Part shown: piece by piece, positions 246-54,200 of the stretch | Numbering within the stretch: the stretch's first letter is position 1 | Layout of the letters: every line of letters begins with the position of its first letter | Origin: Branchiostoma floridae | Taxonomy: Eukaryota; Chordata; Leptocardii; Amphioxiformes; Branchiostomatidae | Reading direction: 5' to 3' | Length of the DNA stretch: 64,000 nucleotides | Assembly: GCF_000003815.2 (NCBI RefSeq) | Contig: NC_049980.1 | Location: 11,561,460 to 11,625,459 of the forward strand | Position numbers and translations under genes: made by a program | Notes under the pieces: model-generated | Databases searched by the model: none | The model's input: the letters and a program-made list of their open reading frames with translations, nothing else | What the model was told of the DNA's origin: nothing

Positions 246-2706
246 ATCAGCTCCCACCGGGCGTCTCAAACGACGCCTGGACCGTCAACATAGAGCACAC
301 ATGTTCTGGCACGGTGACCAGCCTGTGGGACTGTGACAAGACTTATTCAGAGCCCTGCTGGCTAACATACGCCGTGGGAGGAAGTGGGGAATGCCCTAGC
401 CTTCTCCAAATCTCGTGCGAAGGCGGGGCCCTGTTTCTAATCTTTCTTAATGGCCCTCACCTTGTCCTTTCTACTTATGGTGCAAACACCTATGTCCTTC
501 TTTGTGTCATTTCTTTCTTTATTTCAACAAGGTGTAATAGTTACCCCATGGGCGGGGCGAGGTTTCTGTGTATATCACCAGGCCCGCCCACCGAGGGGTA
601 TGCCCGAGGGGAGACTAGAAATCCCCGAGGTGGCGGGCCTGGTGATATACACAGAAAACGAGCCCAGGGCCATGGGGTAACTAACTTAGCCCATGGCATA
701 CTTCCCCGAAGCTTTTCTAGTTCATCAGCTTTACAAAATGTTACTTTATTTTGTCCTTAAAGTCCACAATCTTTCTTGTTATTGCTTGAAAAGCTGTGAC
801 AGACAGTGTCAGGCTGTAACAACACACGGTCATTAATCTTGTCAAGACCTTCCCGGCCAAGGTACCCGGAGAGACAGAAAGTCTGGTGATATTCCTCTGG
901 GCAATTAGAAGTGAAGAGTGGGATTGGTCAGTTATCACATGACACAATTCTAGTCCCAGAAGATGGGCTCAAAGGTAAGCTAGGGTTGGTCAGAACAGGT
1001 CACATGCGTATAGCACCCACACTTTTCAGGCTGATATCACCACAGTTTTCTTGATATCACCACAGTTTTTTCCTCATTTGCATGAAATAGCAGCACACTT
1101 TTTTTCGTAGCACCATACTATGTGGATATATCAACAGAAAATGGGGGCTCCTCATTGGCTGAGGGGAAGTAGCCATGGGCTAATTACTGATATCACCGTG
1201 CAAGGCTGTTCACATTTAGCCCATGCTTGACATGTTAGTAATGAAATAAGATATTTGATCTGCCAAATTTATTTGCATAGGTTGTAAAGCCAACCTCAAA
1301 GCCAACATCTTAACGATTTGTCTGATCATATAATGTTCATATCAACAGCGCAGCACTTGCTCAGCAACACGGACCTTGTATTAGAATATTGGAGATCAAC
1401 TTTTTGTTGTCATATTGACATGTATATCAAGTTTCCCTTTATTGTGAAAGATATGATAATATACATTTTAAAGAAACTTACAAGAATGGAATCTATCAGC
1501 AGCATGACAAGGACAGATAACACATGTACGTGATGGAAAGATTTAATGCTGTTCTATTGTCAATGTGCAGTAAACACGACGTTCCCTGACCTGATGTCCT
1601 GTCAGCCGCCCACGACAACCATTCCCAACCCAACCACGTCTGGTCCTGACGTCACAACACACACGGAAGGTAGGTTCACCTACAGATAGTTTGAAGATGG
1701 AGAGACAGGGTTAGTTCGCTTGCTCACATTAACCATCAAGCTGTAGAATGTTTCAGGTTTGGATTACAATATCTGAAAAAATCGACAAAACTCTTTAAGG
1801 TTAGCAAACACAGATTTAGAATATTTCATGGCCATATTATATAGTCACAACGTAACATGTTGTAATATGTAATGCATGAGATAACGTATTGCCGTAATGA
1901 TAATTACACTTACAGATAGCCTCACAACTCCGGGACACGAAGCATCACCTACTGCAGGGCTTTCTACAGGTAAATTAGACCTGGTTATATTCATGGTATC
2001 AAGAGGTGGTTTTCAAATTACAGCTGAATCAGTAAATATTGATATGGCTATTGTGACTAGTTGTGACTTCTTGTGGCAATTGTAACTAGTTGTAACGACA
2101 TGCAAATAAAAGCCTGACGTCTTGATATTGAAGTATTTTGATCAGTTTCATTGGGGTCAACCTTTTTAGTGTGTCTTGATTTTTCAGAACAGTGTTTAGT
2201 GAGTATGGTTTAAACCACTGATTATACAGATCACAAGGTTTCGATTATCAACTTTATCTAGCCTTGATGAATTTTTAAAATATTGTTTTCGACTACAGGT
2301 GAAAAGGTTGGCATTGCTCTCGGGGTGACTGCGTTTGTCTTGGTAGCGATGGTAGCTGGTTACTTTTGTCACAAAAGGTAACTATGTTGTTCATAAACAT
2401 GCGTCAAAAGAGGTATTCCTTTGTAGAATGATAGCTAACGTCTTTGTTTCACACGTTAATTGACTTTTAAACAGCTATAGTGCAACGGAAAAGGAACATC
2501 ATGTTGTTGACTTTTCATATTATGTTGCCTACATACTGAGCTACAGAAAAAAACGTTGTCAAGTGGCTCCAGCTACCACACAACCAGAGCAGACAAAGAA
2601 ACCTGCTGTCGGAGCAACAGATAAACAAGCAAGGGATAACAATCCCACTCAAGATGAACGGGAAATGAGTGACTTTGGGGAAGCTTCAGATGAGTCACAC
2701 AGCTAA
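246..2706 (+). CDS. Gene A: SRCR-domain type I membrane receptor, 3' part
   Basis: Five exons are visible: 246-422, 1571-1669, 1916-1969, 2299-2377 and 2547-2706. The first is the second half of an SRCR domain (four Cys, ending ISCEV); the first half lies left of the window. Then come a Thr/Pro stalk exon (PPTTTIPNPTTSGP), a juxtamembrane exon (TPGHEASPTAGLSTG), a membrane-helix exon (GIALGVTAFVLVAMVAGYF) and a tail of about 53 residues ending SDESHS-stop. Phases agree throughout (1,1,1,2). The first intron has a GC donor at 423. Intron sequence left of exon 246 is closely similar to that left of B's matching exon at 8110, so A and B are recent tandem duplicates. The tail stops early: homology to B's tail continues past the stop. 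A surface scavenger/pattern-recognition role is family knowledge; the ligand is unknown. Confidence 0.8.
540..681. repeat. Foldback element with ~58-bp arms
   Basis: An almost perfect hairpin in gene A's first visible intron. The left arm starts GTTACCCCATGGGC and the right arm ends GGCCATGGGGTAAC, with about 25 bases between arms. A TA dinucleotide sits on each side, compatible with a TA-target MITE (Tc1/mariner type). Family assignment is inference. Confidence 0.75.
1033..1070. repeat. Short tandem duplication
   Basis: The motif TGATATCACCACAGTTTT occurs twice directly in tandem in gene A's intron. Confidence 0.6.
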
Positions 2707-8500: not shown

Positions 8501-10386
8501 CTGTCAAAATCAAAGCCAACATCTCAACGTTCTGTATGATCATAAACGTCCAAATTAACTGTAGTCTTTTTCAGCAAGAAGGGCCTAGTATTAGAATTAT
8601 TGAAGGCAATGCTTGATAATCATTTTCGTTGTCAAATCTACACGTCATGTAACGATATGTCAAGTTACCATTTCTTGTGAAATATATGATAATCTACTTG
8701 ACGTTTTAAGTGTTGAGAATGCATTCTATCAGCAGCATGGCAATGTAAGATATCACCGAGCGTACATGTATATGAAGGAAGCCTTTAATGTTGTTCTCTT
8801 GCTAATATACAGTAAACACGACGTTCCCTGACCTGATGTCCTGTCAGCCGCCCGCGACAACCATTCCCAACCCTACCACGTCTGGTCCTGACGTCGCTAC
8901 AGAAGGTAGGTTTACATGAATATATTTCAAAGATGGAGACACAGGGTTAAGGTGCACTCGCACTGCACTTGCGGCATGCTTGAGTCACTGCGGGGTTCGA
9001 AAGATACTTAAGGAATTTCTGAGATAAAGAACGAATTTTCTTACTTTTTGTTTATTATGTCGTCTTCAAATTTTTACATATTACGCAATATCTAAATTAT
9101 AAAAAAATCGGAGGAAATAACAAAACAGTGACGCCGTGAACGAACCCCGCAGTGACGCAAGCTTGACGCAAGTGCGGTGAGAGTGCAACTTAAGTTCGGT
9201 TGCTGACATTAACCATGCGCCTACTGTAGAATTTTTGGGAAATGTTTCGATTATAATATGTACATAATGTTTAAAATATATTCGGCAATAATATTCAGAG
9301 GATTTGCAAACACACCATGATATGTCAAATACGCCAAATTAAATAGTCACAAGGTAACATGTTGCGATATGTAATGCTTGTCGTTTTTTTCGTAAATTGC
9401 ACTTTCAGATAGCCTCACGGACAAAACTCCTACAGCGTCGGGACACGAGTCGTCATCTGGGTTTTCTACAGGTAATCAGACAGGTTTATTCACGGTATTA
9501 GGGACGGTTTTCAACTAACAGCTGAACCAGCATACTCGTATTTGTATAGTTGTTTTCGCGTGGCATCTGTGATTAGCTGTAACGGCATGCAAATAAAGGT
9601 CTGACGTTTGACATTGAAGAACTTTGATCAGTCCTTGTTTCATTGACATTCTGGTGTTTCTTGGATTATCAGAAGTACATTTTGTGTGTATAATGTAAAT
9701 CACGTCTTACACAGATCACGTTGTTTGCGCTGTCAACTTTATCTTCTTGAATTGTTGAATTCGGATACAGGTGGAATCGTTGCTATCGTTGTCGGGGCGA
9801 TTGCGGGTGTCGTCCTGCTAGCACTTGTAGCTAGCAAGCTTTGTTGCAAAAGGTATGTTGATCATAAACATACGTCAAGAGAGATAGTCCATTGTTGAAG
9901 AATACTTAACTATGGTTTTAAATTTGTATTTCACACATAATTGGCTAACACGTTTAGACAGCTATTTACAACGTTTCTGTAAATAGGAGGGAAAATAACT
10001 ACACGTCTTTCGTGGTTGACTATTGATATTTGTTGACTAAATACAGAAACAACCGTAACAACCGTCGAAGGGGAAACGCTGCAGCTCATAATTCACAAAG
10101 GCGGGCACAACCACCACCTGTCGGAGAAACAAATGAACAATCAAGTGACAACAACCCCACTTCAGGTGAACCGGCACAGCTGCAGGAAATGAGACAAGTC
10201 GGAGAGGCTTCCGATGAGAGACTCAGCATTGAAGTGAAGGATGGAACGTCAGGAACGGCAGCAAACCAAACGTCAACAGATCCAGATTGTAGCCAGCCTA
10301 CCGGCGAACCATCAGCATCAGAACCATCAGGTCAAACGGACAGCCCCAAACGTCCTGGCAGCGCTATGACACCGATCGACTCATAG
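5561..10386 (+). CDS. Gene B: CCP-like + SRCR type I membrane receptor
   Basis: Nine exons: 5561-5636, 6404-6649, 6993-7088, 7349-7537, 8110-8280, 8813-8905, 9409-9471, 9771-9852, 10047-10386. They total 1356 nt and give an unbroken 451-aa protein. Residues 1-25: signal peptide (MMFLKISLFLCVVIG; ATG at 5561 or 5564). Residues 26-107: 8-Cys module with sushi-like spacing (GDQLYYKC...IITC). Residues 108-139: Pro/Thr linker. Residues 140-259: one SRCR domain split by an intron (WGSVC...IACRMLGF / LWNC...ISCK). Residues 260-311: stalk and juxtamembrane exon. Residues 313-337: membrane helix. Residues 339-451: Ser/Thr/Pro-rich tail with no tyrosine. Split coding of SRCR is typical of group A domains. 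The donor after exon 5 is GC. Likely a cell-surface recognition receptor; ligand unknown. Confidence 0.85.
6066..6240. repeat. Foldback element of the GC-rich-ended family
   Basis: The left side reads CCACTGCGCTCTCACTGCG and the right side GAGTCCGCCGTCCAAGTGG. The ends match those of the larger foldback element at 23258-24156. It sits in intron 1 of gene B. The element has no coding capacity. Confidence 0.5.
8947..9193. repeat. Inverted-repeat element between TTAA sites
   Basis: Terminal inverted repeats of about 27 bases with a few mismatches begin TTAAGGTGCACTCGCACTG and end GAGTGCAACTTAA. The AT-rich core contains GAGATAAAGAACGAA, also found in the element at 23258. TTAA at both ends could be part of the repeat or a target duplication. 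Located in an intron of gene B. Confidence 0.7.
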
Positions 10387-15700: not shown

Positions 15701-18068
15701 GTTGTTAATGTTGTTGTGCTGTTGGTATACAGGAAACACGACCCTGTCAAACCTGACCTACTGCCCGCCGACCACAACCACACCGACTACAACAACGTCT
15801 GGATCTACAGGTAGGTTTGAAAACACTGAAAGAAATGTACACTACAATAGATCGGTCCCATTGCTCTGCTCACCTTCGTCAAAACGTAGAAATTTCAAAA
15901 CAAAAATTATGAAAAAATATTGGAATGTAAAAGTTTAAAGTCCGCGTAGTTATATTGGTTGAATAGCCAATTGTCATTCTCTCCCTGCTTTAAATTGATC
16001 AAGATAATTGTGATGGACAGTCGCATCGGTCTATTGCATGTAGCGATAGTACAGTTAGACATAAACCGATATGGAATTTCTAAGGTATCACATACGAGAA
16101 TTTCTAAGGTATGTTAAGGGCGCTTTCCATTACAAGGTCTGTAAATATTCTGTTAAATTTTTATTTCTTTCAAGAATTCACGAAAAAAGGGATAGTTAAA
16201 AAAGGTAAAAGAGAAAGTCGCAGTGAGACATCCTTAAATCTGTCACGTTTATTGGGGGTCTTTATTTTATGTTTTTCAAATCCTACACAGTGGCCTCTGG
16301 GAACGAACCTCCGGCTAATACAGGATTGTCTACAGGTAAATGAGACGTGTTGAATTTGATAAAGATTTCATCTGTGAAAGACGCCATAATGTTCTCAATA
16401 AATGTTGATTGCTGAAATTCGAAAATCTATATTAATGCTTTTATATCGAATCGCCCAGGACTTACCCTCGGGTGCATGCTATATGGGGCAATTCAACTAA
16501 TGCCAATACGATGTTGTGTCTCATTCTTTAAGAGGTGAAAAAGTATTTGTATCTTGAAAGTTCATCTATGTTTAACTAACTGGCCAATTAATATCTTTTA
16601 ACAGCTGCAGTTATCGCCATCGTTGTCGCCGTTGCAGTTCTACTTCTACTGTTATTGGTCTGCTGCTGTGCTTGCAATGGGTAAGTTGTCCACGGTCATG
16701 CGTAAAGCACTGTTATTCTTTTTGCTCATGACTGTACATGATTCTAAAAATCTTTGTTTATAAGCTTGGTCATGACAAGTACATTTTGAAAATTTTTGCT
16801 TCGCGACTATAGGGCTTTGTCCATACATAAATGTCAGAGTAGATATTGTAATCTGACATAATCTCCGATTCTGTTGGTAGCTATAGAGATCCCGATCGGG
16901 GCAGTTAAAACTTTTAAAACTTAAAGACAGTTAAAACTTTTAACTTCGATTTATGTGACTGACTTACATCAATAGAAGAACTTGGAATTTGGGATTTATA
17001 AATTGACCTACACCGGTAGGCTCGGCGATTCTGTCAGATCGCAATCTCTACATTGTGTAAACCACGTTACTGATTATTCTTATTTCTGGCAGATCTGGAC
17101 GGGACACTAGACGACGAAGGGTAAATCCAAATAGACAGCCTGCATGGACAAGAGAAAATTATCTAAGGGAACACCCATCCAGAGACAATAATCTTACAAC
17201 CGTTGATGAACCTCTACACGACATGGAAAGATTATTGGAACGTTTGGATGATACACATCACAATCAACTGACACATGAGCGCGCCATACGCCCAGCAGAA
17301 ACGGTACGCGCAGCAGAAACGGTACGCGCAGCAGAAACGGTACGCCCAGCAGAACCGGTACGCCCAGCAGAACCGGTACGCCCAGCAGAAGCGGAAACAG
17401 AAATAGAACCAAGGTCATCTGTGGAGGAACCTCCAGGAGCAAACACAGGTCCAACAGAGGATCCATTTCAGAACAGCTTAGCTACTGGCGACAACTTACC
17501 AACAGAAACAGCGACACTGACAGTGCCTGACATCCGTGAGACAGGAGAGGAAGACTCCAAGACAAAAGCAACAGAAGACACAGGAGAAGGAGACATAGAT
17601 CAATCTGCAAAGGAGACGACAAGCATTGATGTTGATCAGAAAGAAGTAAAAGAGCATTGTGAGATGGAAGCTCCAAACACAGCGGTTGTTTCAACAGAGG
17701 CTTCTGTAGAAACAGAGAACGATCCGGTCATAGAGGAACTTCCGGAAGCGACATCATGCCCTACAGGAAGATGTAGCATCCTCTCGTCGGACGCACATCG
17801 CGCGGCATGGACGGAGGCTACAGACGGGCCAGCAGAGGGAGACAACACTCATCAGCCTACAGCAGAACAAGCAGTAGGGGTGAGCCAAACAGGGAAGCCT
17901 GGAGGAAGACTATCCTCTGTTACTGACCCGATATTTCCTTCAGATGAACGGGGGCCGCTAGGGTCACCATTAAATGATCAGGACAATGAAAGTCCGACAG
18001 AAGACAAACTAGATAGTGCAAGACAAAGCGCACGAGAGCATGATGATCTGACAGAGGAAGATCTGTAG
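12784..18068 (+). CDS. Gene C: CCP-like + SRCR receptor with long acidic tail
   Basis: Exons: 12784-12859 (signal peptide MRLLNTALFVCVVVG), 13398-13640 (8-Cys CCP-like module), 14194-14253 (linker; GC donor), 14609-14797 (SRCR first half, WGSVCYTAAW), one exon largely in the gap and ending at 15246 (SRCR second half), 15733-15810 (Thr stalk), 16291-16335 (juxtamembrane, NEPPANTGLSTG), 16605-16680 (membrane helix ending in a Cys cluster), 17093-18068 (tail). About 637 aa if the hidden exon matches B. The tail of about 325 aa is Glu/Thr-rich and begins with a basic stretch, then six 6-residue repeats of the RPAETV type (17288-17395). The visible end of the SRCR exon is one base short relative to A and B. 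This may be an assembly error beside the gap or a real lesion. Confidence 0.8.
13854..14082. repeat. Inverted-repeat element
   Basis: Perfect 18-base inverted ends, TCTCACTGCACTTGCGTC at 13861 and its complement at 14058. They flank an AT-rich core that matches the core of 8947-9193 in the opposite direction. Non-coding, in an intron of gene C. Confidence 0.75.
14837..14878 (+). ncRNA. Hammerhead-ribozyme-like motif (candidate)
   Basis: The order is GTCA, CTGACGA, a 6-bp stem (GGATAG/CTATCC), GAAA, CGTC, TGAC. That follows a type I hammerhead layout: stem I GTCA/TGAC, core CUGANGA, stem II, GAAA, cleavage-site GUC. One extra A lies before stem II and stem III is minimal, so activity is doubtful. 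It probably marks a retroelement remnant running into the gap. Confidence 0.35.
14885..15194. other. Assembly gap (310 N)
   Basis: Undetermined bases. By comparison with A and B, the gap hides most of gene C's second SRCR exon and part of a repeat. Confidence 0.99.
17288..17395 (+). repeat. 18-base coding tandem repeat
   Basis: Six copies of an 18-base unit (ACGCCCAGCAGAAACGGT type) in gene C's cytoplasmic tail, encoding Arg-Pro/Ala-Ala-Glu-Thr/Pro-Val. Length variation between alleles is likely. Confidence 0.85.
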
Positions 18069-19871: not shown

Positions 19872-22800
19872 ATGGGTAAGTCTTCGATCGTGAAACTTTT
19901 GTTTGTCATCACAATCATCTTCAACTGCCATGCACATCCCAGCCTTTCAAGGGGACACCATAGGAGCATCAAGTACAGAGGTATTTGCCGTAAAAACGTT
20001 AAAGAGTAATTCTGCGTTGGTACATTCTGATCATGAATCATGCCTGAAGCTCTCTTTGAGAAATTCATGAGTTACTAAATGAAATTATGTATCCATCACG
20101 TTCAAATGTGTAAAAACGGGTCTTTGTGCGCCTACACGACTGAGGTAAGACAAAATTTTCATCGTAAAAAGGCAATAGTTCGATAGATTTTAATGTCACC
20201 GACGATCCCTAAAATCATGTCTGATCGAGAAAATAACGGAAGTATTTCTGCAGAAATGACATTTATAGCTCATAGACTCATTGACCGATCGATTTTCGTG
20301 CAATATGATAGGAGTACTAAAATTTTGACGCTTTCATTGCGTGTGTACATCAGATCAGCCTTTTGAAAACCAATGGCATAAGTCTACCATTGCATATTGA
20401 ACTGAAATTGCATACTGAATTTTTATTGCAAAAAATGGGATGAACAGACAGGAAATAACTATAACTCAAGTATTCACGTAAGACCAGCATCGTAACGTTG
20501 TTAATAATGATTGACATAAGGATAGATATTCCAAAAGGTTTTAGACGCGCTGGTATTTAAGGATACAAATCTATACCAGAAAGCTTAAGCGGGGGATATG
20601 CAACACCATCCTCTATAGTACAGTGGAAATGATACTTGGAAGTAGCAATATAGGTCTGTTATTCACTTGTATTGTTTCAACATCTTCAGTCTGCAACTTC
20701 CCCCTTGGTATGGAGAATGGCAACATTTTAGACCACCAGATGTCAACTTATTACGAAAATCCTGGATATGAATCATGGAGAGGTCGTCTTAATGGTCCCG
20801 GAGCATGGTGGCAGCCAGACCACGTTCTGGTGAAGTATCTTCAGGTCAGTATATGTCTTCATAGCTATTATCAAGGCCAAAGTGCGACTGAAAATACGAT
20901 TAATGATACAATTCGTTGAGTGATCTGTCAAACTTAAGATCGCAGAGAGAGCGCTGCAAGAGCACCGTTATAGTAGAAAGGCGCCGTGAAGTTTCTCCCA
21001 GGGAGCCTCTCTAATGATGGATACAGTTTGGCATACGTTTTGCGACAAGGAAATACTCTTTGTGTTCTTTACAATTGGTGTCCGTAATACGGCAAACAAT
21101 ATGTCTTATGTGTCATTATATTTCAGCCATACCATAGGTATAGTGAAATATATATTGTATTCGTAACGTTTCTTTCTTTCTTTCTTTCTTTCTCCTGTCA
21201 AATCTTCAAATCGAATCAACTCCGCCGTTTTTAAACCGATTGACTTGAAATTTGGCACAAAGGTAGAGTAAGCCAATACCCTCAGGAGTTTTTTTTTTCA
21301 TTTTTTTAATATCTGCCTTTAAAATGATTTTATTGAGGTTTTTGTCAATTTTTATGTATATTTTGGGCTCCTGTACCCTGGTATTACAGCCGAATGACAT
21401 GAAATTTGGTACAAGGGTGCCCTGATCATATGTCCACCCAGATTTGATAACAGTTTTGGCACACGGTACAACAAAATGCTTAATTTTCCAATTTTTGGCC
21501 ATTTTTTGACAAAAAAGCACATTTTTGCCTCCTGTACCCTCGTTTTACAACCGAATGACCTGAACTTTGGTATAAAAGTGCCCTTCAATTATGTGCGCAT
21601 GAATTCAATAACAGTTTTTCCATACAGTATAACATAATGCTTAATATTGCGATTTTATGGCCATTTTTGGACAAAAATTGGACATTTTTGGCTCCTGTTC
21701 CCTCGTTTTACAACCAAATGACCCGAAATTTGGTAAAGAGGTGCTCTAGATATTTATCCAAATAATCCCTGTATAAGTTTTGGCATGAAACACTTTAAAA
21801 TGATATATTTGGGAATTTTTTGGGTCATTTTCCAATGGCCAAAGGGGTCAACGACCTCAAGGCCTATTGTTGCATGAGGGAGACGGCTGAAATATGTTGT
21901 ATTTGCTCTCAAGCAAATGTCGGCCTTTCTAGTTTAAACTGCTTTCTGACTTCCCACAGATTAATTTTGCCACCGATAGAAACGTGAGCGGCATTCAAAC
22001 ACAAGGTTTTGAAGATGGATGGGTGGAAACATTCCAAATAGAAACTGCTGTTACTGGTTCAATTACATGGACGCCTCAGTTTACGGTGATTGTGGGATTT
22101 TTTTTCTGTCACATTTTATTTTCATCGTATTGTGGTCGGATTTGTTTATGCTACGTTTATACCTGTCGTAGACCTATGCCGTTGGGGGGGGGGGGGGGGG
22201 CAAATATGTAGTGCGTATGGGCATTCTGTTATATTCTGTTTTTTTAATAGTTTTGAGTGATTTTTTACGTTGCAGTACAAGTCAGTGTTATCTTCGAATT
22301 CCACAGAACTTTGCTGGAAACACAGACAACAAAACAATCATACAGAATGAATTTAACCCGGTAATTAAGACTCGGTACATCCGAGTCCTCGTCAAGACAT
22401 ATCACGTTGCCGCCAAGATGAGGATAGAGTTCCTGGGATGCGATGGTAAGTTGCCATTCGTTTTTCGTCTTTCTGTCTGTTATGAATATAAATGAGCTTA
22501 CAGTTATGTATGCGAGATCCCTTTTGAAAACTGAAAGGCCTATTTGTCTACATTAGAAGAGTACTGTAAATCCTGGAGGTTGAAAGTCAACCTTAAAAAG
22601 ACAAAGATTGTAGTTTTCACAAAGGGTGGTCGGTTACCAAAAGACTGTTCCTTCTTGTTCAATAGTAATATAGTAGAAATTGTATCTTCATATTGTTAGT
22701 TAGGCATAATTGTCAACTCAGCCGGCACATTCAAAGCCAATCACAAATACCTATATAACAAGGGACTGGGAGCTTTGTTTGGAGTCAGACAATCCCTGGA

Positions 22801-25800: not shown

Positions 25801-27200
25801 ATTTTTCTTATGAGGTTTCATCGAACGACATTATACAAACACATCTCAAGCTACATATTCAACATTACTAAGAAACGAGAAGAAGCCGAACAAATATATT
25901 AGACTAGTTTTAGAATCCATGTTTTAGAAACCATGTGTACTGCATTACTACCTTTGTATCTACGAGTATATGCCTGTACTTAGCCCGATAGGGCATGAAT
26001 GTGCAATAAAGGCTATTATTATTATTATTATTATTATCTGATTGTCCATATGAACTAAGAGTGACGGCTCAAAGAGCGGGGTACATCCAGCGGTTTCGCT
26101 GTTGGATGTCCCTGCGTAGGAGGATGGACAGATGCATATGCTGACTGAAATATCGCAAACAATTTTGCATTTCTTTTTTCCCCTCAAGATACCGACGACT
26201 GCCAGTCCGACCCCTGTAAGAACGGCGGTACATGTGTGGACGGGCTGGACTCCTACTCTTGTAACTGTACTGACGGATTTAGCGGAGACACGTGCGAAGG
26301 TACAACTTCATGCTTCACACAGATATTAATCATTAATCATTCCATACTGAAGAATGTGTTGGACATTGGATGACGATATTTTAGGTAACTCACAAGTTAG
26401 AGCTCTCATCTTTAAAACTTCTTTCTACCCTATTTTGATTATTGATAAAATCCAAGATTGAATTCCCCTAAGGACAGAACACCTTTGCTCGGTGTGATTA
26501 TGATGAAATAGATTGTGATAATCACGACCTTATTGGCATAACAAATGAGTCATGACGAAACATTTGGAAAGACATAAACATCTAAAGATTCAAATTTTGG
26601 ATTTAATGCGCTACATTTTGCGACAGATGCAAAGCAAGAAGCACCTACGGCTTCCGGTAATGAATCTCCCACCAACTCCGGATTGTCGAAAGGTTAGTAT
26701 GATTTTACGAATATACTGAAACTGATACCAGTTCTCGTTGTTTCTCAATACGTTTTAATCATGAGATACCACTATTTCTCTAGACGGCGATCGCGCCGCG
26801 AACTCACTGCGTTTGAATTTAGTAAGCCTTGACTTCAGAATTGGAATATCACGTAAAAGGTATATCTGAAAATAGAAGAGAGCAGACGACATTCGTTATT
26901 TCTGTCAATCTATGGAATTCGTTGTAATCCTGTCAAACCACGAAAATCTACGGAATTCTGTCAAATCATTCAAATTCTGTGAGTCACGGCGAGGTCGCGG
27001 TGAGGTCACCACCTTATTCAGACAGGAATGTTAGTGAGTGTAACCTTCTAGACTTATACAGGAGACTTCCGTATGTTTTCTCTCCTCTAGGCGACACCAT
27101 TGCTATTGTCGTCATCTGTGTTGTGGTGGGTGCAGTGGCAATTATAGTTGTCGCTGCGATTGTGATCGACCGCAAGAATCCACAGATATGTATGGGAAAG
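19872..27200 (+). CDS. Gene D: FA58C (discoidin) + EGF membrane receptor, 3' end uncertain
   Basis: Exons: 19872-19980 (signal peptide, [17 protein letters not shown]), 20690-20844, 21960-22085 and 22307-22445 (FA58C domain, residues 37-176: [42 protein letters not shown]), 26189-26299 (EGF; six Cys; C-x-D-x4-Y-x-C-x-C matches the Asx-hydroxylation pattern), 26627-26692 (juxtamembrane, [18 protein letters not shown]), 27091-27200 (membrane helix). All phases agree. FA58C domains bind lipids or glycans in known relatives; the ligand here is unknown. The usual phase-2 donor after the helix is absent; the frame runs on to a phase-0 donor, and I could not find a convincing last exon. Closest paralogue in the window is F, but D has a far shorter stalk. 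Confidence 0.75.
20905..20990 (+). repeat. End of a GC-rich-ended foldback element
   Basis: Contains ATTCGTTGAGTGATCTGTCA followed by AGAGCACCGTTATAGTAGAAA. This matches the right end of the elements in G and H (54200, 61430). Partial or diverged copy in gene D's intron. Confidence 0.45.
21119..21932 (+). mobile_element. Helitron-like element, copy 1
   Basis: Its 3' end has a 7-bp stem with 4-base loop (ATTTGCT-CTCA-AGCAAAT), ten bases, then CTAG followed by T. That is the standard Helitron 3' terminus. The inside has a TTTC microsatellite and about three tandem units of about 162 bases (each starting CTCCTGTACCCT). The 5' end does not show the usual A/TC start. No protein is encoded. It ends 27 bases before D's exon 3. 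Confidence 0.65.
23258..24156. repeat. Foldback element with GC-rich subterminal repeats
   Basis: Left end CCCCATTCCACT then GACGGCGCTCTCACGGCGATGG, with a nested palindrome just inside. The right end is the complement of CCCCATTCCACTAGGACGGCG. The core is AT-rich and non-coding (GAGATAAAGAACGAA as in 8947-9193). It interrupts the LINE reading frame at TTTAA; the LINE resumes after TATAAAG at 25421, consistent with a TAA target duplication for the whole insertion. Confidence 0.65.
24180..24467. repeat. GGCGCTCTCACGGCGATGG repeat array
   Basis: Dozens of copies and part-copies of GGCGCTCTCAC and GGCGATGG in both orientations. They amplify the subterminal motif of the adjoining foldback element and run into the assembly gap. 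The open frames across it are products of the repeat. Confidence 0.75.
24468..24828. other. Assembly gap (361 N)
   Basis: Undetermined bases between the GC-rich array and a poly-C tract. The missing part probably includes the far end of the foldback array. Confidence 0.99.
25108..25412. repeat. 10-base minisatellite (CGTTCCTTTT)n
   Basis: About thirty units of ten bases. The variant CGCACTTTCGGTACTTTC recurs at the start, middle and end, giving a higher-order pattern. Because ten is not a multiple of three and the unit has no stop, several frames stay open on both strands. Confidence 0.9.
26780..27010. repeat. Foldback element of the GC-rich-ended family
   Basis: Left TCTAGACGGCGATCGCGCCG and right TCACGGCGAGGTCGCGGTGA bracket an AT-rich non-coding core. 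Same family ends as 61237-61430. It lies just upstream of D's membrane-helix exon. Confidence 0.5.
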
Positions 27201-27309
27201 GTACTGTCAATGTGTTTTTTTACAATCGTAAAGGTCATATGATATATACATATTTTCAATAACAAAACTGAACATTTAAAGAAATAAACAATCAAGACAT
27301 TCCTGTACA

Positions 27310-27745
27310 AAAAAGTTGATAGATATTCTGCATGTGACAGAGGACACTTTACTAGACGAATTACTAGACGATTACTAGACGAAAGTCACTTTGTTATAGA
27401 TTGTTCACGATATAATGACAAACGCACAGAGCTGTTCACATTACTTTCCGCTTACTCTAAAGAATTTGCTACCCTCTGTTCGATAGATAAATTCAACTAC
27501 ATTCTGGGAGGCGATAATCCTCACTGTGTACAAGTAGGCAAATATATCCACGAATGCTTACAAGTAGAACCAATAGTATAAATGACACGTAGATATAGAT
27601 CCAATATGTTGATTTATTCATACCTATAGATTCCATATAATATGGCTGTTTAGTTGCACTGTAAGTAGTTGTTATACATGTAGACCTTACGAAAGTCGCT
27701 GCACTTTTGTCGTGCCAATAAAGATTTGTATTCTAATATATATGC
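27310..27745 (+). mobile_element. LINE 3' end (fragment 3)
   Basis: Encodes the tail SHFVIDCSRYNDKRTELFTL and QVGKYIHECLQ, then a stop and a 3' UTR ending GCCAATAAAGATTTG. Similar in layout to 3030-3595. A small tandem repeat (TTACTAGACGA) precedes it. It sits right after D's helix exon and may have separated or removed D's last exon. Confidence 0.7.
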
Positions 27746-28929: not shown

Positions 28930-29540
28930 CAGTCTTTCACCATGAGGAGCTGCACATTGGGGCGCACTGACCTGGCAAAATAAGCGTGCCGGGTCATCTC
29001 TGGGTCAGTGAGCAGGTGAAGGTCCAAAGTACTCCTATATCAATAGAGAAGCAAACACTGACCTGGATCTATACCACTATTGCCGTTGCGCAATGACGCA
29101 GCGACCAGGTGGTTTGAGAGTTGCAAGTTGCTAATAATTAGGCAATTTAAAGCTATAAAATGGAAGTGACAGAGCCGCCTGGAGGAACTTTACAGTGTCA
29201 CCGGACGGATGACTGAACTGAACTGAACTAGTCACTATCATCCAGGGGCCAAATGTATTATTTACGGTAGAAATCGATGGCAGCCGTAATTGTAAGAAAG
29301 GGTGCATATCTAATGCGACCACAAGATGACGGCCAAGCCGTTTCAATGTCCTGAAACCTGAGATTTTTGGAGATGTTGCATTGCTTTGTCCTGTCGCTAT
29401 GCGGCGTTGTAATCTTAGTCAGGCGACATAGCACTGTACACTGACAGTGACATCCAGGTGTTCGCACGGACAACGGGATAATGTATGCATGTGTTCGAGA
29501 CTTACTTCGTTTGTCTGTCTGGGTAATGTGAAATTGGCCC
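28930..29540. repeat. Segmental duplicate upstream of gene E
   Basis: Matches 37690-38460 upstream of F. Both have GCACTGACCT...GGGTCAGTG, GTGAAGGTCCAAAGTAC, GACGCAG-GACCAGGTGGTTTGAGAG, then GCATTGCTTTGTCCTGTCGCTATGCGGCG and CACTGTACACTG. It may contain shared regulatory sequence. Confidence 0.7.
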
Positions 29541-30114: not shown

Positions 30115-33100
30115 ATGTTGGTGAAGATCAGTTTTGTAATAATTTTCCTGGTGGCGCTGGCTCGCGATCGTAGTAACGGTAGGTCAATCTTCTTTAAAAG
30201 AGGAGGGTTCCAGCCACATGCTTGTTTGTTGCCATGGTTGACAAACTACTTTCTCGGGACAACGGCAACTTTAGCAGTGCTACCGTTTACGCATGTATTA
30301 TCACCAGCACTCACAATTTGGTATACATATTACGTTTTGTGAAGTGAATGGACGAGATAGAGTACTTTCATGAGTGTGACATTTCCAGTCTTAAAAAACA
30401 AAACCATTCATAATTGGTACGAGTATGGTTGCTATAACGCTGTAAACAATCACAGGTTATGCAATACAAAGCCTCGGATTTCTTAGAGGCCATATACATG
30501 TATTCAAGACGTCATGAAATCTACAGAACATTTCAGACGGAGACAACATTACGTTCTCACGTTTATGGTAAATACGTCTTAAGAAATATCTGAAGATCTG
30601 TGTAAACAGTAAACAACTTAATGTTTTAGTAATAGGTTGAATATCCCCGCCGCCTATTTAAAGAGCAGAAGATGAATGTGTCTTCTCATTAGACAGATTT
30701 ATTTATAGTTTTTAGTTTTGTCTCCTTTCTTGTAAATGATTTGCTCTTATTTAACATATGCATTGCGACAGTTCGTTTAGACGAACATACTTACGAAACA
30801 CCATGTATAGCTAACATTTATTGGTAACGTTACTTTTACTAAGATTTCCCGGGTGCCACGTCACCAGAGCAAACAGCTCCTCCTGGAAGGCTGAAGAGCA
30901 CTTGGCCACCAGACGGTATTGACATTTCATGCGAAACATAATCACAATCTTTGTACAAAAGCTATTTCATGTATGTATTTGCAATATATTTATTTCAGAT
31001 GTTCCGTGAGATTATTACATCAGATTATCAATCTTTAATAATATTGAGAATTGAATTTCATTCTTTAAAGTTGTCCAATTTTGTATGAATTAGCTCCATC
31101 ATATGCAGCATAGTCTAGATGGACATTGTTATATACAACATACATGTATAGCGCTAGCCGCTACATGTATATGTGCCGTAAGCTGGACAGGACCATTCGT
31201 TTTTCTTTTAGGATGTATCAGGCTCGTCGAAAGTACCATTAATACGGCGCCTATCGAGACGATAGGTTACCTTCAGGTGTACTACAGTGGTGCTTGGGGG
31301 AGCGTCTGCCTGACAGGTACCTGGGCTCCAGGACCGGCAACTGTCGCATGCAGGATGCTTGGATTCAACACCCACGGATCGACTTGGGCATCGCAGACAA
31401 GTAAGTAATTCACTAAACAGTGAAATTCAATCTCATTGTCTTTTTACCTCCATGAAATGTCATGGAGGTTATATTTTACCCTGCGTTTGTCTGTGTGTCT
31501 GTGCGTAAACAAGATAACTCAAGGACGGCTGGGTGGATATGTCTCATACTTGGTGTGTTGATAGAGTGCGATGAAAGCTGGACATGAGTAGATTTTGGGC
31601 CCCTATTGCCTTCCCTTGGTACTGCAGCGTAACTTCCGGGTTTGCCATCTCATGTTCTTAACGAGCTATGGTCACGATTTTTAGGCATTAAATAGCTCTC
31701 TTGATCAGGAATAAGTGGCATAAGTTTGGGCCCCCTAGCGGCTAGTTTTGTGGGGGTATTTTTGTCAAAAAAATCTGAAGACGATAACGTCTGAAGGGAA
31801 CAACCGATTTTCACGATTTTTGCTATGTAACGTTAGATACCTTAGACAATGTTGTACAAAATGAAATACTAATTATGCAAAATAGAAGCACATTTGCATA
31901 ATAAATGAGAATATTCTATCATAGCAGTTTTTTCTTTGTATGTCTTGTCCCAGATATGATATCTTCTTGACATTTAGCTGGTAGATAGCTTGCAGTGTCA
32001 TGACAAAGTGGGGCAGGTTTCAGCCCCCTAACATTTAATTTCGGAACTGCAGGGGTGTTTTGTCAAGACATTCCAAAGAGGATAACTGCAGGAAGGAACG
32101 ACGAATTGGCATCATTTTAGGCATGCGGGTAGCTTGCGCAAAGATGTTCATAATGATATACATGTTCTGAAAATGAAGACTTAATTTGCATAATTAATGA
32201 GGAAATTGAATACATGTGTAATTCCATTGTTTGCAATAACTGGACTTCAATAAATGTAACACTTGTTAATTATGATTAGTGGAAAATAAGCAGATACCAA
32301 ATATGGTAATGAGGAACTTGGTTGCATAATTTATGTGAAAATTTCAAAACCGCTTTATGATTAATGATGGGTATTTTGTAATTGTAACATGTGTACGTTA
32401 GTCAATGATGAACAACACCATGCATGAATTATGTTAATGTGCTAGTTAATTGCATTAAATTTACAAAAACTCTAAATATTTCATGGGGGTATGAGGTCGC
32501 CGAACTTAATTTTCATTTGTTTAAATAAGGAAAGCAACCCTTTTTGACAGTTTATGTAGTATATAAGTTGTATTCTCCTTTAGTAGTGTCAACTAGTTTG
32601 TCCGTCTGTCTTAAGTATCGTACAGGCAAACGGCCCTTGGATTGCGTGCAAAAATTACAAACAAAAAACGTAAAACTTGTTACTGTTGACATCTCTTCGT
32701 CTAGATGTCCTGCCAGTCGGCCATTCCAGCAGCGCATGGAAGATTAACATCGTGTACTGTTCTGGAACGGAGAACACCCTGTCGGACTGTGTGGTAACGC
32801 ACCCTTGGCTGACTCCAACCACGTTTGGAACCCCGGACTGTCAAATTCTGCTGAAACTCCCGTGCAATGGTCAAAAAAAAAATTCGTATTGTTTGCCGTT
32901 AATGTCTTATATTTCGGAACTTGCATACGCCCGCATACGATAAGAACCTTTCGGCTTTAGGTGTAAATAAATATCAAGTTCGGCTGACTTATAGCTTGAT
33001 GATTTCTTATATGTGTACGGCAATTGATGTCCTTATTGCATTTGTAGAGAGCAATGAAACACGTTTTACTGGATGATAAATGATTCATGCCAGTCGAATA

Positions 33101-35274
33101 ACGCCTTGTTCCTCATGTACAGACACTACGGCCTTCCCTGACCTAATATCCTGTCCGCCACCCCCAACAACCACTACCAACCCAACAACCCAACCGGTTA
33201 ATCCCAACAAGCCAACACATAACACAGGTAGGTTATAATTAACTTTTCACATTTCGATTTCATTGACGGTTTAAATGTAGTGATGATTTAGCAGGTATTT
33301 AAGGTACAATAGTCTCAAAAGATGAAGCAACCACTTTCTCAGGAGGTCCGTGTGTGATCCGTAACTTTATGTCATATCATTTAACCTTTTACGATACTAA
33401 TAGCTACTACAGAGATAACGTCCTTGAGAGATACTAATAGCATGACCTTTCATGACCCTAGAACCATCTACGGCTTCCGGACATGAATCTCAGACAAGTG
33501 TCGGCCTCTCTACAGGTAAATAAGTCTTTGACAACATACAGAAAGCTGAACAGCTGGAGACTGATAATTTCGTCAATTTCTGATGTTTAGATACTTCTTT
33601 TCTGGGGTCTGAAAATTGTTAACACTGTACACATTTTGATTTTTGTGACGATCTTATTGTAGTCTTGATTCTTTTTTTACGTTTTGTGAGTCGCAAAAAC
33701 TATCTGTGAGTGTGTTGGGGCCGGACGGCACAATCAGTGTGTATATTGAAGACAACTTAAAGTTGGTTTACATTCCCCTTTAATATACGAGTTTCTTTGA
33801 TCCAGTTGAGATCATTGGCATCGTCGTTGGTAGCCTGGTTGTTGTAGCACTTGTTGGTGGTGTGCTTGCGTACAACTATAACAAGAACAACAGAAGGTAC
33901 GTAGAAGCATTTTTATATTTCAGCCATACATAGTATGGTGAAATATATTGTATTCGTAATGTTTCTTTCTTTCTTTCTCCTGTCAAATCTTCAAATTGAT
34001 TCATCTCCGCCATTCCTGGACCGAATGACCTAAAATTTGGCACAAGGGTAGAGTGGGCCAATAACTTGATGCTTTTTTCTCATTTTTGTCATATCTGCCT
34101 CTTGAATGATTTTATTGAGGTTTAAAGGTCACGTTTTGACCAAAACGGTATATTTTGGCCCCCTGTACCCTGGTCTTACAATGGAATGGCCTGAAATTTG
34201 GTATAGATAGGCATTAGATAGTTGGTAAAATGATCCAAGTAAAATTTTTGTCCTAAACTACTTTGAAATGCTTAATTTCAGCACTTTTTTTAGGTGAAAT
34301 TGGTTTTCTTTCGGCCTCCTGCCTTGAACTCCAGTGACCCCACACACCTGCGGCAGCCTGCGCTTTGGGGAGAGTTAATTGAATTTAAAGAGCCAGCCAA
34401 TCAGCGCCGAGAAGGCGAATGCTAATTAATATTCATAAGCTGGCTTCCAATGCCGTATATACAGACAGAAACACATGCATATTACAGCATTACAGTGGCC
34501 ATATGTCACCCTGTGCCCGGTTTAAAATTGTAGTTTGCAAGGATTTGGAGTTCAGACAGGGTCATTTTGAGTGGTAGCAGACGGTACGCGTGCATTGAAC
34601 GTTAGAATACAAGTCTTTGTCGTTGAATTAACCAATATTCCGCATGGCGATATCCATCATTTTTGACAGAGTTGACTTTGGAAGGGGTTAGTCCTTGGGG
34701 TAGTTGAGACAATCGAGAAAATGTAAACGCGGGAAAATTGGCCAGTTTGCGTTTAGTTTTGATACGTAGGTTTGACAGTGGCGAAAATGATTATTTTCTC
34801 ATCAATATTTCTCGTCATAATCATTTAAACTGTAAATCTAAACAATTGACTTACATGTGCAATTTTTAAATGAATAAAGATCAGTGGGTACTAAAATTAT
34901 GTGTAACTTATTGCTCTTTGTCAATAGATCAGCATTTTTCTATAGTGGCCATATGTCTATAGTGGCAACATTTCTATCACTGTACTACTGGAAAGAAAAG
35001 TGATGTATTTTTTCCCGAGCAAATGTAGGTACTTCTAGTGTTGTTGTCGTTTTTATTACGTAAACTTTGTACATTCAAATTGTAAGTAACTTTAAACTGC
35101 CAGAGTTTTAGCCCAATAAAACACTCCCAGTACCAGGGTATCACCGCTGACCCCCGAAAAGAAACCCTCGAACAAGATAGAAACTCCTATCCTCCGGGTC
35201 TCGCACGCTACGAGCAGGAACTTATAACACTAACACAAGAAGATTACGCCCGATGGCTGTTGCATACAAAGTAA
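30115..35274 (+). CDS. Gene E: SRCR type I membrane receptor with ITIM-like motif
   Basis: Exons: 30115-30178 (signal peptide MLVKISFVIIFLVALA), 30844-30915, 31212-31400 (SRCR first half, WGSVCLTGTW), 32705-32869 (SRCR second half, NTLSDC), 33123-33227 (Pro/Thr stalk), 33462-33515 (juxtamembrane, PSTASGHESQTSVGLST), 33806-33896 (membrane helix), 35112-35274 (tail). They sum to 903 nt and give exactly 300 aa with a clean frame. A polypyrimidine tract and CAG at 30080 suggest a 5' UTR intron. The 8-Cys module of B and C is absent. The 54-residue tail has three tyrosines besides one in SQYQGI, which fits the ITIM consensus S/I/V/L-x-Y-x-x-I/V/L. An AATAAA lies at 35715. Confidence 0.85.
31446..32506 (+). 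repeat. 1.05-kb repeat with ACCTCCATGA ends, copy 1
   Basis: Starts with a small palindrome (ACCTCCATGA-AATG-TCATGGAGGT) and ends TCATGGGGGTATGAGGTCGCC. It is AT-rich, non-coding, with an internal duplication around GAGGATAACT...GGAACGACGGATT. A second copy is at 49983-51035. It occupies the intron splitting E's SRCR domain. Confidence 0.8.
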
Positions 35275-39400: not shown

Positions 39401-42400
39401 ATGGCTACGTCTGGGATTGTGAAACTTTTATTCGTTGCCACTACCGTCTTTGTATATCCCAGCCTTTCAAGAGGACTTCCTGAAAGCGTCAAGTACAGAG
39501 GTGAGATACGCAAATGTTATCTCAGCGTCACAGAAAAGTCTTGAGTAGCTGAAAGACTTCATAATTCGTGTTGGCACTTGTCATCAATCATTCTGAAACA
39601 TGTAATGAGAGCCTTTTTCTCTGAAAGGTGAATTGGAAACGCTTTCTTCAGAATTACTAGGGAGAGCAAAATGGACGACTTCAATATGATGTTGCCTATT
39701 AAATTCTCATATCAACAAGTGTTGCCCACGCTGTAGGGTACTGTAATCTTTAACATGCATTGAAGAGAATATATTCCAACCGGGCGCGTGATCGCACCAC
39801 TAAACTAGCCATCGCAATGTTTGAAAATTACATATGAACACTATCTTGTCTACTCCGGATCAGTCAAAATCATGATCAACATTAAATTATGTTTTTATGT
39901 GTTTTGTTCAGCATCCTCAGTTGTCTGCAACTTCCCCCTTGGTATCGAGAATGGCAACATCTTAGACCGTCAAATGTCAAACTATTACGAAAATCCTGGA
40001 TATGAAGCATGGAAAGGCCGCCTTAACGGTCCCGGCGCCTGTTGGATTCCGGATACCATGACAGAGAAATGGTTGATGGTTAGTATGTTACCATTATTTG
40101 ACACTAACGTCCAGCCACATGTTCTTCTAATAACAGCAATTTCTTGAAGTGATGTATCACATACATCTATTTTGTACTTTGTGTAATAGTCGTTGCCATA
40201 CATTGTACCATGTACAATTGTCGTGCGATAAAGTTTTTTTCATCACAGTCCCACCTTAACGTATAACTAGCCGAAAATGGTGCAACATGCATTATGAATT
40301 TGTTATGCCTTAGTTATATGATAGTGTCAATACTTCCTGAAGTGTCATCTTCTCAAGCGAAAAGATGTTGACCATCCTGTTAGCTTAGCACCTTAAAATA
40401 GTTAAATTGTATAGTGTTGTTTCTGTTTTCTTGTATATGTCTGTTAATTCATATTATATGCAACCTGTACCTAGCCCGTCGAGGCATGAATGTACAATAA
40501 AGGTCTTCCGTTTATTCATTATAACTAAGGGTTAGTGACCCGCCCCGAGGTGTATATGGTGCCATAACGCCTGGTCCTTTGCTATAACCACCAAATAAAA
40601 CCGAGTGAGCGAACAAGGCGTTATGACACCATGTACACCGAGGAACAGGTGGGTCATTAACGTTATCATCATATAGCCTACCCAAACTTGCAAACCCTTG
40701 TATGACGCATAGATCCCTTGGTACTATACGTGTGAATTCCTTTGTCGAATTTTAGAAAATATACATTTGCTCTTTGGTACATACATATGTAAGGAGATTA
40801 CAGATTGCATTTTGAAACCAAAATTTCCACAGAAAATATTCGAAACATTGCAGTCCTTAGCTTTTTAGAACAACAAAACTCATTATCAATGTTAACAGAA
40901 TGAGCCATTCCCCCTTGCAGTCTGTACTTATTCCCTCTGCTCTGGCATATGTTTCGCTCCTTTTGATTGGCCAAGGCATACATATACCTTACTTTCTTGT
41001 GTGTATCGATCCTTCTGATTGGTCAAAATTAATCTACACCAGCACCGTTGTCGATTTGCATTGACACCGGTGCCGGTGTCAATTCATTCTGACCAATCAG
41101 AGGAGCGCTACACACCGGCCTGGCCGGAATCTATGTGTTACTGCGTCATAACCAACGTGGAACGGGGCCTTCTGATCGGTCCGTGGCGCCTGGCTATATG
41201 ATCATGACAACACAGCATCAAACGAATAAAAGATAGTCGTGGGACTAAAACAACTACAAGAACGAAACAAATAGTTGATCTTAGACTTGTCCTCTGCTAC
41301 CTTGAAAATTACGCAGACAAAAGGCAGGAAGTGGTATAAATGTTTTAAAAATTTGAACTAGTGATTGGCCTTCCTCAGGTTAATTTTATGGTTGAACGGC
41401 ACGTGAGCGGCATTCAAACGCAAGGCTTTGAAGATGGATGGGTGGAGACATTCCAAGTAGAAATTGGAAATGTTGGCACGTCAACATGGACACCTCTATT
41501 TGCAACGGTATGCGAAAGATTGTTTGTCCTTCTAGGAATAAAATGTTATCCTCTATTGCGTTTACACTTTTTGCAACTGTGCCTTGCATGGATTTCGAGG
41601 TTACATAAGTGTTTTCAATTTATTTTTTTTTTACTTTTGTTACCTACGTGTTTTCCAATTTTGCAGTTGTAATGGTTATCTTCCACAGGACCTAGCTGGA
41701 AACACAGACAACGTCACAGTCGTACAGAATGACTTCAACACGGTAATCGAGATTCAGTACATCCGTTTTGTCGTCAAGACTTACCATGTCGCCGCGAAGA
41801 TGAGGATAGAGTTCCTGGGATGTGATGGTAAGTTGTCACCCATCTGTCTTTATTCTTTCTTCTAGTCCACATCCAATATCGCAATTAAGAATACACAACA
41901 TATCCTATTTGGTACAAATAATTAATTATATGAGTTACATAGTTCAATCACGTTTGACGTATGTCCTTGCTTGTCCACGAAAGATGCTAGCCGAAATGTT
42001 GAAAATGTGCTTCCCATTCTTTCTTTTTCGCCTAAAGATACCGACGACTGCCAGTCCAACCCCTGTAAGAACGGCGGTACCTGTGTGGACGGACTGGACT
42101 CCTACTCCTGTAACTGTACTAACGGCTTCAGTGGAGACACATGCGAAGGTACAACGTCATACTTCACTTGAATATTCTTACATGTACTAAAGAAGACAAG
42201 AAAACATGATAAGATTTTCCGTTTAATTAGGAGACCTACATCGTATAATAAAAGAGGAAAATATCGGTATCTTTGTTTAGTTTGCCCATGACCTAAGATC
42301 ACCTAAGTCTGAAGGTGCTTTGACTGAATTTTATGCAAAGAAATGTAGTGGTTCGAAAACAGTAAACGCTCTGTTTTAAAGAGGTCGCCACCATATCGCT

Positions 42401-44940
42401 CCTAATTTAACTTTTCTCTTTGCCCCTTCAGAAAAGGCAACTACAATTGCGATGCCAACAACTACACCAATTGCTCTTACCACGAGCACTATCACAACGG
42501 TCACCCTGTCCCAGATGACTGTCCCGCCTACAACAGGCGTATCTACACCCCACGTGCCCACAACAACAACGACCCAGGCATCCACTACCGTGTTGTCAAA
42601 TGGGCCAACCGATCTTCCTACAACTGCTGACCTTCCCACAACCACACCAGGCACTACGGCCAAAGCAACCACTATGGATATACAAACAACTGTGACAGCG
42701 AACACCGTAACATCGACCACGCCTTTTCTTACCAACGATGTCTCGACCCAACACATAACCGCCAACGACAAACATTCTACGGCTTTAGGTCAATCCACGT
42801 TGGATTCAGGGACTATCAACACAAAGCCAGAGTCCACGTCAAAGTTCGCCTTGGAAGATTCAACAACAGATACCACTGAGTCATCAAACCAGCCAGTCAG
42901 TCAACCAGCTACATCCGGCGCACTGATCGGTAAGGAAAATGTTTACTTTGACCTTAGGTCATTAGGATAGGACATCATAATCGAATGGAGATACGTGTTT
43001 GGGAAAGGCCACATCCCACGCACGTTATTAAAGAACCCATCACACACCTTTCGAAAAAGAGTAGGGGCATACCCCGGTGTGCGATGGTGCAAACCTTCAG
43101 AATGTTGAAGGTGGCAACATCAACTTTCATAATTCCAACAGGTGCGATAAAATCGCTACATAAGAAAATATACGAATTGAAAGTGATTTAAAGATATGTA
43201 CCCATGCATCATCAGTAATGCTGAGGTACATGTATATACACTTCAGATATTTAGGCGTTCAAGACAATCTTGAGAAGAGATCTATAATAATGTTTTCTTA
43301 TGTGGCCGTATTATGGCACCCGATGGAATTATGAGAGCTGTTGTTAACCTCAAAAGAAAAATCAAGAATAAGTAGCATAGCAAAAATAATGACAATTTGT
43401 TGTCCAGGTGCCATTGTTGGCGGGGTCTGTGCTGGAGTTGTCGTCATGACATCACTTGTGGCAACAGCCGTGCTACTCCACAAACGGTAAGGGAAGTGTC
43501 AACACTTTTCGATGTACGTTCAACGTGACGGGGTTGCAATTTCAATTTTTGAAATCAAACTTGTCATGAAATTAGGATGAAATGTCTGTGTAATATCTAA
43601 AGAAAATCTGGGGCAGGGGAAATGTCATGTAGTCTATGAATTGGATGACTGCAACTGTACGATCCAAAAGGTTAAGATGGAGTTCTCAGTTATATTATTT
43701 TTGAATCTAAGTTCATTATTGTTATGGTTTGAGATCTGTTATATCACTGTTGAATCTAAGTTAACTACTGTTACAGTATCTCATATTATTTTTTGAATCT
43801 AAGTTCATTATTGTTATGGCTATATTGAAATCACTTTTGTTATTTTTGCTGTCATTTTGTTGGATGGTCCCCCAACTCTTGTTTGTCTTTGGTTATTTGA
43901 AAACCCAATGAAAAAAAAAAAAAAGATGGAGTTCTGGCTCATCAGCAATGTAAATGTACATACCACATATCCAAACCAGTTTTTCTGTGGTTTAGGAGGA
44001 ACATTAGAACTTCAAAGTATCTTTCAATCATTTTCCAATCGTGTTTGTTTCAACATATAATCATCCTCTTTGCCTTGTTGAAATAAAGAATACACGACCA
44101 TTTTATCTGTGAAACAAGTAGATGTTGTCCTCGGGATTGCTTTATTTAAACCATTCCTGAATAGGTGAGGTCAAAAGTTCTAAATGTAACTGCAAAACAA
44201 ATAAACCACCATGGTGCGAAAAAGTACACCCGCAAAAGTCCGTACATATCTCTTATTGATCTTCTGTGGTCCACTTCAGATAGCGCCCTTATCAAAGGTT
44301 TCCAATATCTCTCTATGAGTGAACCACAGTTGGTCCAAACACGAGGCTTAAGGTATTTACACGTTACTCGGCGTGTTTATTACACCTAGGTAGCGTCAGT
44401 GCGCCTCTGTCATCTCTGATGTGTCCACATAACCCCTGCAACTTTTATCTGGGGACCTTCGACACCGGGATCTAGAAACGGCACAGAATAGGGTACAGAA
44501 TTAATTGATTAACACAGCTGTGAAAGGGTTTATTAATGGCGTGTTGATTGAGTTAGGGACATGAATATATCAACCTGCTTACATTGTCACATATGGTTAA
44601 TCGATGAAATCATAGTGTTTAAGATAAGAAGAATACATTCCCAATATATAGTAACATGTTAATTATGGTCCTTTTTCAACTAAAGATTGATAGTTCAATC
44701 TTTATATGTCGGTATGGTGGTCTTGAAAAGACGTCTTCTACCAGGAAACACCTTTGTTCCGCCATACCTTCCATTGTAATTTGGAGAATTCCAATAAATA
44801 TATCAACCAAGGAAGGCAAATTGTGCGTCTTAGGTTTATAGATACGTCTGTCAGTAATCACAGTTGCGGTTATTTTCTTTCTCCGCAGAAAGAAACTCAA
44901 GAGGCAGGTGCTTCCATCTGACGACATCCGCTTGGTGTGA
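39401..44940 (+). CDS. Gene F: FA58C + EGF receptor with mucin-like stalk
   Basis: Exons: 39401-39500 (signal peptide), 39921-40078, 41379-41507, 41689-41827 (FA58C, residues 34-175), 42038-42148 ([19 protein letters not shown]; Asx-hydroxylation pattern), 42432-42929 (166-residue Thr/Ser/Pro stalk), 43408-43486 (membrane helix), 44889-44940 (short basic tail, [16 protein letters not shown]). The sum, 1266 nt, gives exactly 421 aa with no break. D is the nearest paralogue (same exon phases and lengths through EGF), but F has a long mucin-like stalk where D has a 22-residue exon. One Trp of the FA58C core (GAWW in D) is Cys in F (GACW). AATAAA occurs at 45683. Confidence 0.85.
40165..40240 (+). 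mobile_element. Solo LINE 3' tail
   Basis: TTGTGTAATAGTCGTTGCCA and GTACCATGTACAATTGTCGTG match the 3' UTR of the LINE end at 3530-3580. Confidence 0.7.
40440..40515 (+). mobile_element. Solo LINE 3' tail of second family
   Basis: CCTGTACCTAGCCCG...GGCATGAATGTACAATAAAGG matches the 3' UTR of the interrupted LINE at 25970-26012. Confidence 0.7.
40531..40661. repeat. Foldback element, ~45-bp arms
   Basis: GTTAGTGACCCGCCCCGAGG at the left pairs with CCGAGGAACAGGTGGGTCATTAAC at the right, with GGTGCCATAACGCC / GGCGTTATGACACC within the arms. In F's intron. Confidence 0.7.
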
Positions 44941-54006: not shown

Positions 54007-54035
54007 AACAACGGTTTGGGTGTCGGTAAGTACCC

Positions 54036-54200
54036 CTTTCCACCAGACTACGACCTAAAGCAGATCGGTGTAACTTTCGATTTTATACTGGGTACATCAT
54101 ACAACAAAACACACAAAGAGTAAACTACAATTCGTTGTGCGATCTGTCAGAGAGAGAGAGAGTGTGTGCGAGGCTAGAGTGCCGTCCTAGTAGAAATGCT
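54036..54200. repeat. Foldback element in G's intron
   Basis: CCCCTTTCCACCAGACTACG left and AGAGTGCCGTCCTAGTAGAAA right. The same insertion is present in H at 61237-61430, so it predates the G/H duplication. Confidence 0.6.

Follow-up and report, generated by a model that had tools for sequence, protein, structure and literature searches.

Do the receptor genes of this cluster, whose ectodomains are of different kinds, have one membrane-anchoring cassette in common, as the initial annotation proposed? We addressed this question in a window of 64,000 nt (G000:C2:11561460-11625459), extended the scans to 100 kb on each side (264 kb, with 13,232 of 264,000 bases being N), and searched the genome of 513 Mb in 431 contigs. 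The gene models are our own, read from the DNA and not from annotation (Table 1). Four genes on the + strand of the window are of the SRCR type (A, B, C, and E), three are FA58C/EGF genes or what is left of them (D, F, and G), and H is a partial EGF/helix copy. The order A, B, C, D, E places D inside the SRCR run.

Table 1. Exons of the receptor genes discussed in the text, in window coordinates.
Feature	Position	Strand	Remarks
A cassette exon (SRCR gene)	1916..1969 (54 nt)	+	phase 1-1
B cassette exon (SRCR gene)	9409..9471 (63 nt)	+	phase 1-1
B membrane-helix exon	9771..9852	+	phase 1 to 2
C cassette exon (SRCR gene)	16291..16335 (45 nt)	+	phase 1-1
D first exon	20629..20844	+	possible signal sequence (by eye), first part of FA58C; paralogous to F 39900-40045
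D second FA58C exon	21960..22085	+	
D third FA58C exon	22307..22445	+	3' border by eye
D EGF exon	26189..26299	+	phase 1-1; ~91% identity to F over 26170-26318
D cassette exon	26627..26692 (66 nt)	+	phase 1-1; reads (D), 21 residues, (G)
D membrane-helix exon	27091..27200	+	phase 1 to 0
E first SRCR half-domain exon	31212..31400	+	
E second SRCR half-domain exon	32705..32869	+	
E cassette exon (SRCR gene)	33462..33515 (54 nt)	+	phase 1-1
E membrane-helix exon	33806..33896	+	phase 1 to 2
F EGF exon	42038..42148	+	
F Thr-rich mucin-like exon	42432..42929	+	phase 1-1; occupies cassette position
F membrane-helix exon	43408..43486	+	phase 1 to 2

The five short exons of 45-66 bases lie where they had been reported and encode the peptides that had been written for them; 5/5 are open, have a length that is a multiple of 3, begin and end in phase 1, and are bordered by AG before and GT after. 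Common to all five is the motif TASG(H/N)ES...GLSTG. When the D peptide was scored against those of A, B, C, and E together, the summed score was 195, which 0/20000 composition-keeping shuffles reached (largest 144, z 11.9); as a control, three Thr-rich stalks from the window gave 78, 79, and 94 with their best 23-residue pieces. A motif matrix trained without D gave D 42.75 and the best noncassette site 27.75 (264 kb, six frames), and in leave-one-out scans of the same sequence every left-out cassette beat all noncassette sites. We also built a null from all splice-feasible 1-1 exons of 45-69 nt on both strands of the 264 kb (n = 6259, of which 14 overlap cassettes). Against the four copies in the SRCR genes D scored 172, while the top of the other 6245 was 91 (mean 44.6, SD 10.2); eight loci in other parts of the genome (~30 kb) added 1122 candidate exons, none of which scored above 94. 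The outcome that would have undone the proposal, a similarity no better than that of random Ser/Thr stalks, did not occur: the best of the 344 exons in the null with ≥40% Ser/Thr/Pro scored 87. Judged by sequence, the D exon is homologous to the stalk exons of the SRCR genes, its similarity lying far beyond chance and beyond that of generic Ser/Thr stalks.

At the DNA level, D 26637-26668 and gene E 33460-33491 agree at 28/32 bases (87.5%; E-value 3.5e-5 for that segment pair), the D exon meets C only at an E-value of 2.4, and no match to A or B was found at E ≤ 10. Between D and E, 5/9 same-residue codons are identical, the most for any SRCR neighbor, and the shared codons include synonymous ones; in its 3' half, D has two codons identical to C (GGA TTG). 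Since E has the most codons in common with D but C has GGA TTG, E is one candidate donor among the SRCR neighbors, the apparent affinity between D and E resting on few codons.

The ectodomains are of two types, as the initial annotation had stated. Two domains of D and no others exceed the Pfam cutoff, F5_F8_type_C (E 9e-14) and EGF (E 6e-9), and SRCR is absent from the matches at E ≤ 1. The SRCR domain, which is split over two exons here, is recognized by Pfam in B and E; A is assigned to this type by the match of its SRCR halves to those of B (69 and 73%) and not by Pfam, and the visible half of C, a gene partly covered by a gap of 310 N, scores below the cutoff. D and F are paralogues at the DNA level, with three FA58C exons at 85, 92, and 81% identity, an EGF exon at 91%, and FA58C followed by EGF in both. 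Their similarity stops 19 bases past the EGF exon (26318 in D, 42167 in F), and their introns are otherwise mostly unalignable. Beyond this break, D continues with the cassette and a helix exon, and F with a Thr-rich exon of 498 bases (166 residues) and a helix exon of its own. A gap of 361 N lies in the D intron between FA58C and EGF, and there is none between EGF and the helix.

The simplest and most likely reading of these data is that D gained its stalk exon from an SRCR neighbor, and we give this reading, including the ancestry, insertion, and spacer role set out here, a probability of roughly 0.68. The cassette would be a short juxtamembrane stalk exon, rich in Ser/Thr/Pro/Gly and inherited by the local SRCR receptor genes from their ancestor. 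A copy, closest by DNA to the one in the next downstream gene, E, would have settled in the D intron between the EGF and helix exons, where its symmetric 1-1 phase leaves the frame intact. Included in the D mRNA, as we predict, it would most likely provide a flexible and, to judge from composition, probably O-glycosylated spacer from ectodomain to membrane. As in 1-1 exon shuffling, symmetric phase and intact borders are found in 5/5 cassettes, D and the SRCR genes have this homologous exon and otherwise nonhomologous ones, and the close paralogue F has another exon in place of the cassette.

The copying event itself is not visible, because no intron sequence common to D and the SRCR genes was found around the exon; both introns flanking the D cassette match nothing else in the 264 kb at E ≤ 1e-4. 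Given that the introns of D and F are mostly unalignable despite similar exons, diverged introns around the cassette are no argument against a local copy. Direct copies with 74-75% identity lie between D and E (28952-29554) and between E and F (37694-38504); these show local DNA duplication around E and not the route of the exon. Reverse-transcriptase-like open frames (by eye) occur in and after D at 22700-23347 and 27288-27578.

The location of D inside the SRCR run could instead mean that its 3' end is the remnant of an SRCR gene that stood between C and E, with FA58C-EGF replacing the upstream exons and cassette and helix remaining together. The D helix begins IAIVV, which is also the start in C and is close to VAIVV in B, and its score with the helices of the SRCR genes is somewhat elevated (215/5000 shuffles reach it). 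Nevertheless, the D helix exon ends in phase 0, not in phase 2 as in A, B, C, E, and F; we saw no SRCR-type cytoplasmic exon or tail frame after D; and neither an SRCR relic nor one of the Thr exon was found in the D region at E ≤ 0.05. We regard this reading as unlikely. Among the SRCR genes, the score of each helix against the other three is reached by only 1-7/5000 shuffles; the corresponding counts against the SRCR helices are 513/5000 for F and 0/5000 for G, and the helix of an unrelated LRR receptor scores 23 with D, equal to that of B. The grouping of the helix exons does not follow ectodomain type, and the stalk exon is therefore the only one shown to be common to D and the SRCR genes. 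The original proposal of a common membrane-anchoring cassette thus needs to be narrowed: shuffles, Pfam, the motif scan, and the exon null bear out one homologous juxtamembrane exon that, within a single cluster, adjoins ectodomains of two unrelated types, but a helix or tail unit common to D and the SRCR genes is unsupported, since the D helix is not significantly SRCR-like, ends in another phase, and has no SRCR-type tail behind it.

The possible last exon of D reads IGMY-stop at ~28193 (by eye). In the SRCR genes, the tail frame of B is without tyrosine and that of C has one. The cytoplasmic frame of A (2464-2933) is B-like and stops after GEASDESHS, with the rest continuing in another frame; the tail may be shorter in A, the gene may be decaying, or the assembly may be wrong here. 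The stalk and helix of E (33123-33896) matched Podoplanin (PF05808) with 33.6 bits against the Pfam cutoff of 30. Scores for the same family are 14.4-14.7 in A, B, C, and, as a control, an unrelated LRR receptor, and the stalk and helix of D are not listed at E ≤ 10. We rejected kinship of E with Podoplanin; the match is probably compositional.

Within the window, 4/4 SRCR genes have the cassette, and of the three FA58C/EGF genes only D does. The motif scan of 264 kb found none in F or G, and no further copies turned up within 100 kb on either side (264 kb including 13,232 N). This distribution bears on another explanation, in which both families inherited the cassette and it disappeared from, or was replaced in, F and G. 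A symmetric exon can be lost without a change of frame, and the Thr-rich exon of F occupies the same position; this explanation nevertheless requires at least two losses, and no cassette turned up in the 17 kb read from a distant FA58C/EGF cluster on C5, both helix ends seen there having a Gly-rich stalk instead. We consider ancestry in both families very unlikely.

Direct protein queries of the whole genome are insensitive in this case, and known copies were missed by them. The D exon as query recovers itself alone; a query of A+B+C+E with X as joiner recovers those four, with a weak place on C18 (E-value 2.09), and misses D; and the consensus finds D at an E-value of 0.109 and misses A, B, C, and E. 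On reading, the C18 place shows no cassette. A place on C9 that the consensus query ranked better than D (E-value 0.0098) is a simple repeat of the SGQRTPTC type, and matches to the B stalk and helix on C4 and C12 (four loci read) are, by eye, LRR-type receptors without the cassette. The SRCR genes that we read are those of the window; given the SRCR matches elsewhere in the genome (150 scored, none in the window), the cassette may be older or more widespread than this locus suggests. The SRCR group of A, B, C, and E itself looks local, because the first Cys-rich module of B (residues 1-59) has three matching places, all at this locus, among the 72 matches listed.

Skipping a 1-1 exon would not break the frame, and the D exon might on that ground be an unspliced relic within an intron. 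Its open frame, AG acceptor, and good donor (AAG|GTTAGT) argue against this, as do its residues, which are conserved while the flanking introns are not, and we find this explanation hardly credible. Least probable of all is convergence of Ser/Thr stalks without common origin: the peptides are short and biased in composition, and the weakest pair, A/C, is reached by 8/2000 shuffles, but for D the shuffles, the stalk controls, and the exon null all weigh strongly against it, as do the synonymous codons in the match to E, and we rejected it.

The cassette may have a more specific role, as a functional membrane-proximal signal (e.g., a glycan-attachment or ectodomain-shedding site) kept by selection on different recognition domains, with neighbors trading an output or release switch by 1-1 exchange. 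We hold this to be distinctly improbable. A fixed glycan or cleavage site in the putative stalk is possible; the Ser-Gly before (H/N)E becomes Pro-Gly in A, and the N-x-S sequon (NES) is present only in D among the cassettes.

Exon shuffling in lancelets is known to favor 1-1 exons: a comparison of two lancelets reported thousands of exon rearrangements, and 40% of the exons that had been shuffled were in phase 1-1 (Huang et al. 2014, PMC4284660). The D exon resembles these cases in that a symmetric 1-1 exon occurs in nonhomologous lancelet genes, and gene D also contains reverse-transcriptase-like frames (by eye). It differs from them in that the moved exon is a stalk of ~15-22 residues with no named domain and the apparent donor is a close neighbor. 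FrLRR of Branchiostoma belcheri is described as a functional membrane receptor built from parts of two genes, with exon shuffling proposed (PMC10199209). Like FrLRR, D would be a lancelet membrane receptor assembled from parts of two genes; FrLRR is proposed to have arisen when LRR exons entered a folate-receptor gene and has protein and functional data, whereas D concerns one stalk exon read from DNA. Amphioxus SRCR genes have been reported to be expanded (PMC10855680) and to combine varied domains (PMC2575513). The SRCR genes of the window likewise stand in tandem; the differences are that D is without an SRCR domain and that the SRCR domain is split over two exons here. Among the matches listed from the open-licence literature, no title or opening of an abstract described the cassette. 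D seems to add one more case to a process already described; its unusual side is that a nondomain stalk exon appears to have moved between neighbors.

A span of 45 kb holds the family presumed to be the donor, the recipient, its paralogue without the cassette, and the D/F break point, and so offers a small, base-level case of likely exon exchange between neighboring receptor genes. Such a case bears on the dispute over whether the turnover of lancelet architectures is genuine (PMC4284660) or arises from annotation, Banyai and Patthy having attributed many apparent lancelet architecture changes to gene-prediction errors (PMC4967905). It does so because the exon, a predicted one in D, was read from DNA and not from annotation. 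Surveys based on Pfam would miss the spread of a nondomain stalk exon.

Several further features of the locus were recorded. The EGF exon of G (52057-54047) seems to be broken just after CSVGIGG by ~1.8 kb containing a reverse-transcriptase-like open frame (by eye), and the second FA58C exon of G has an in-frame stop. H (61145-61247) reads CSVGIGGNNGLGVG without the interruption seen in the EGF exon of G. An N-terminal Cys-rich module (C-x-GPPP-x-Y...) belongs to A, B, and C and lies at 6404-6649, at 13398-13640, and ~1.7 kb before the window start; that of B has no Pfam match, and by eye the module might be a sushi-like domain in derived form. A (422/423) and B (8280/8281) seem to close their second SRCR exon with GC, not GT, donors, and the probable counterpart in C is GT (by eye). 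On the - strand, a long open frame at 62673-63704 is sulfotransferase-like by eye.
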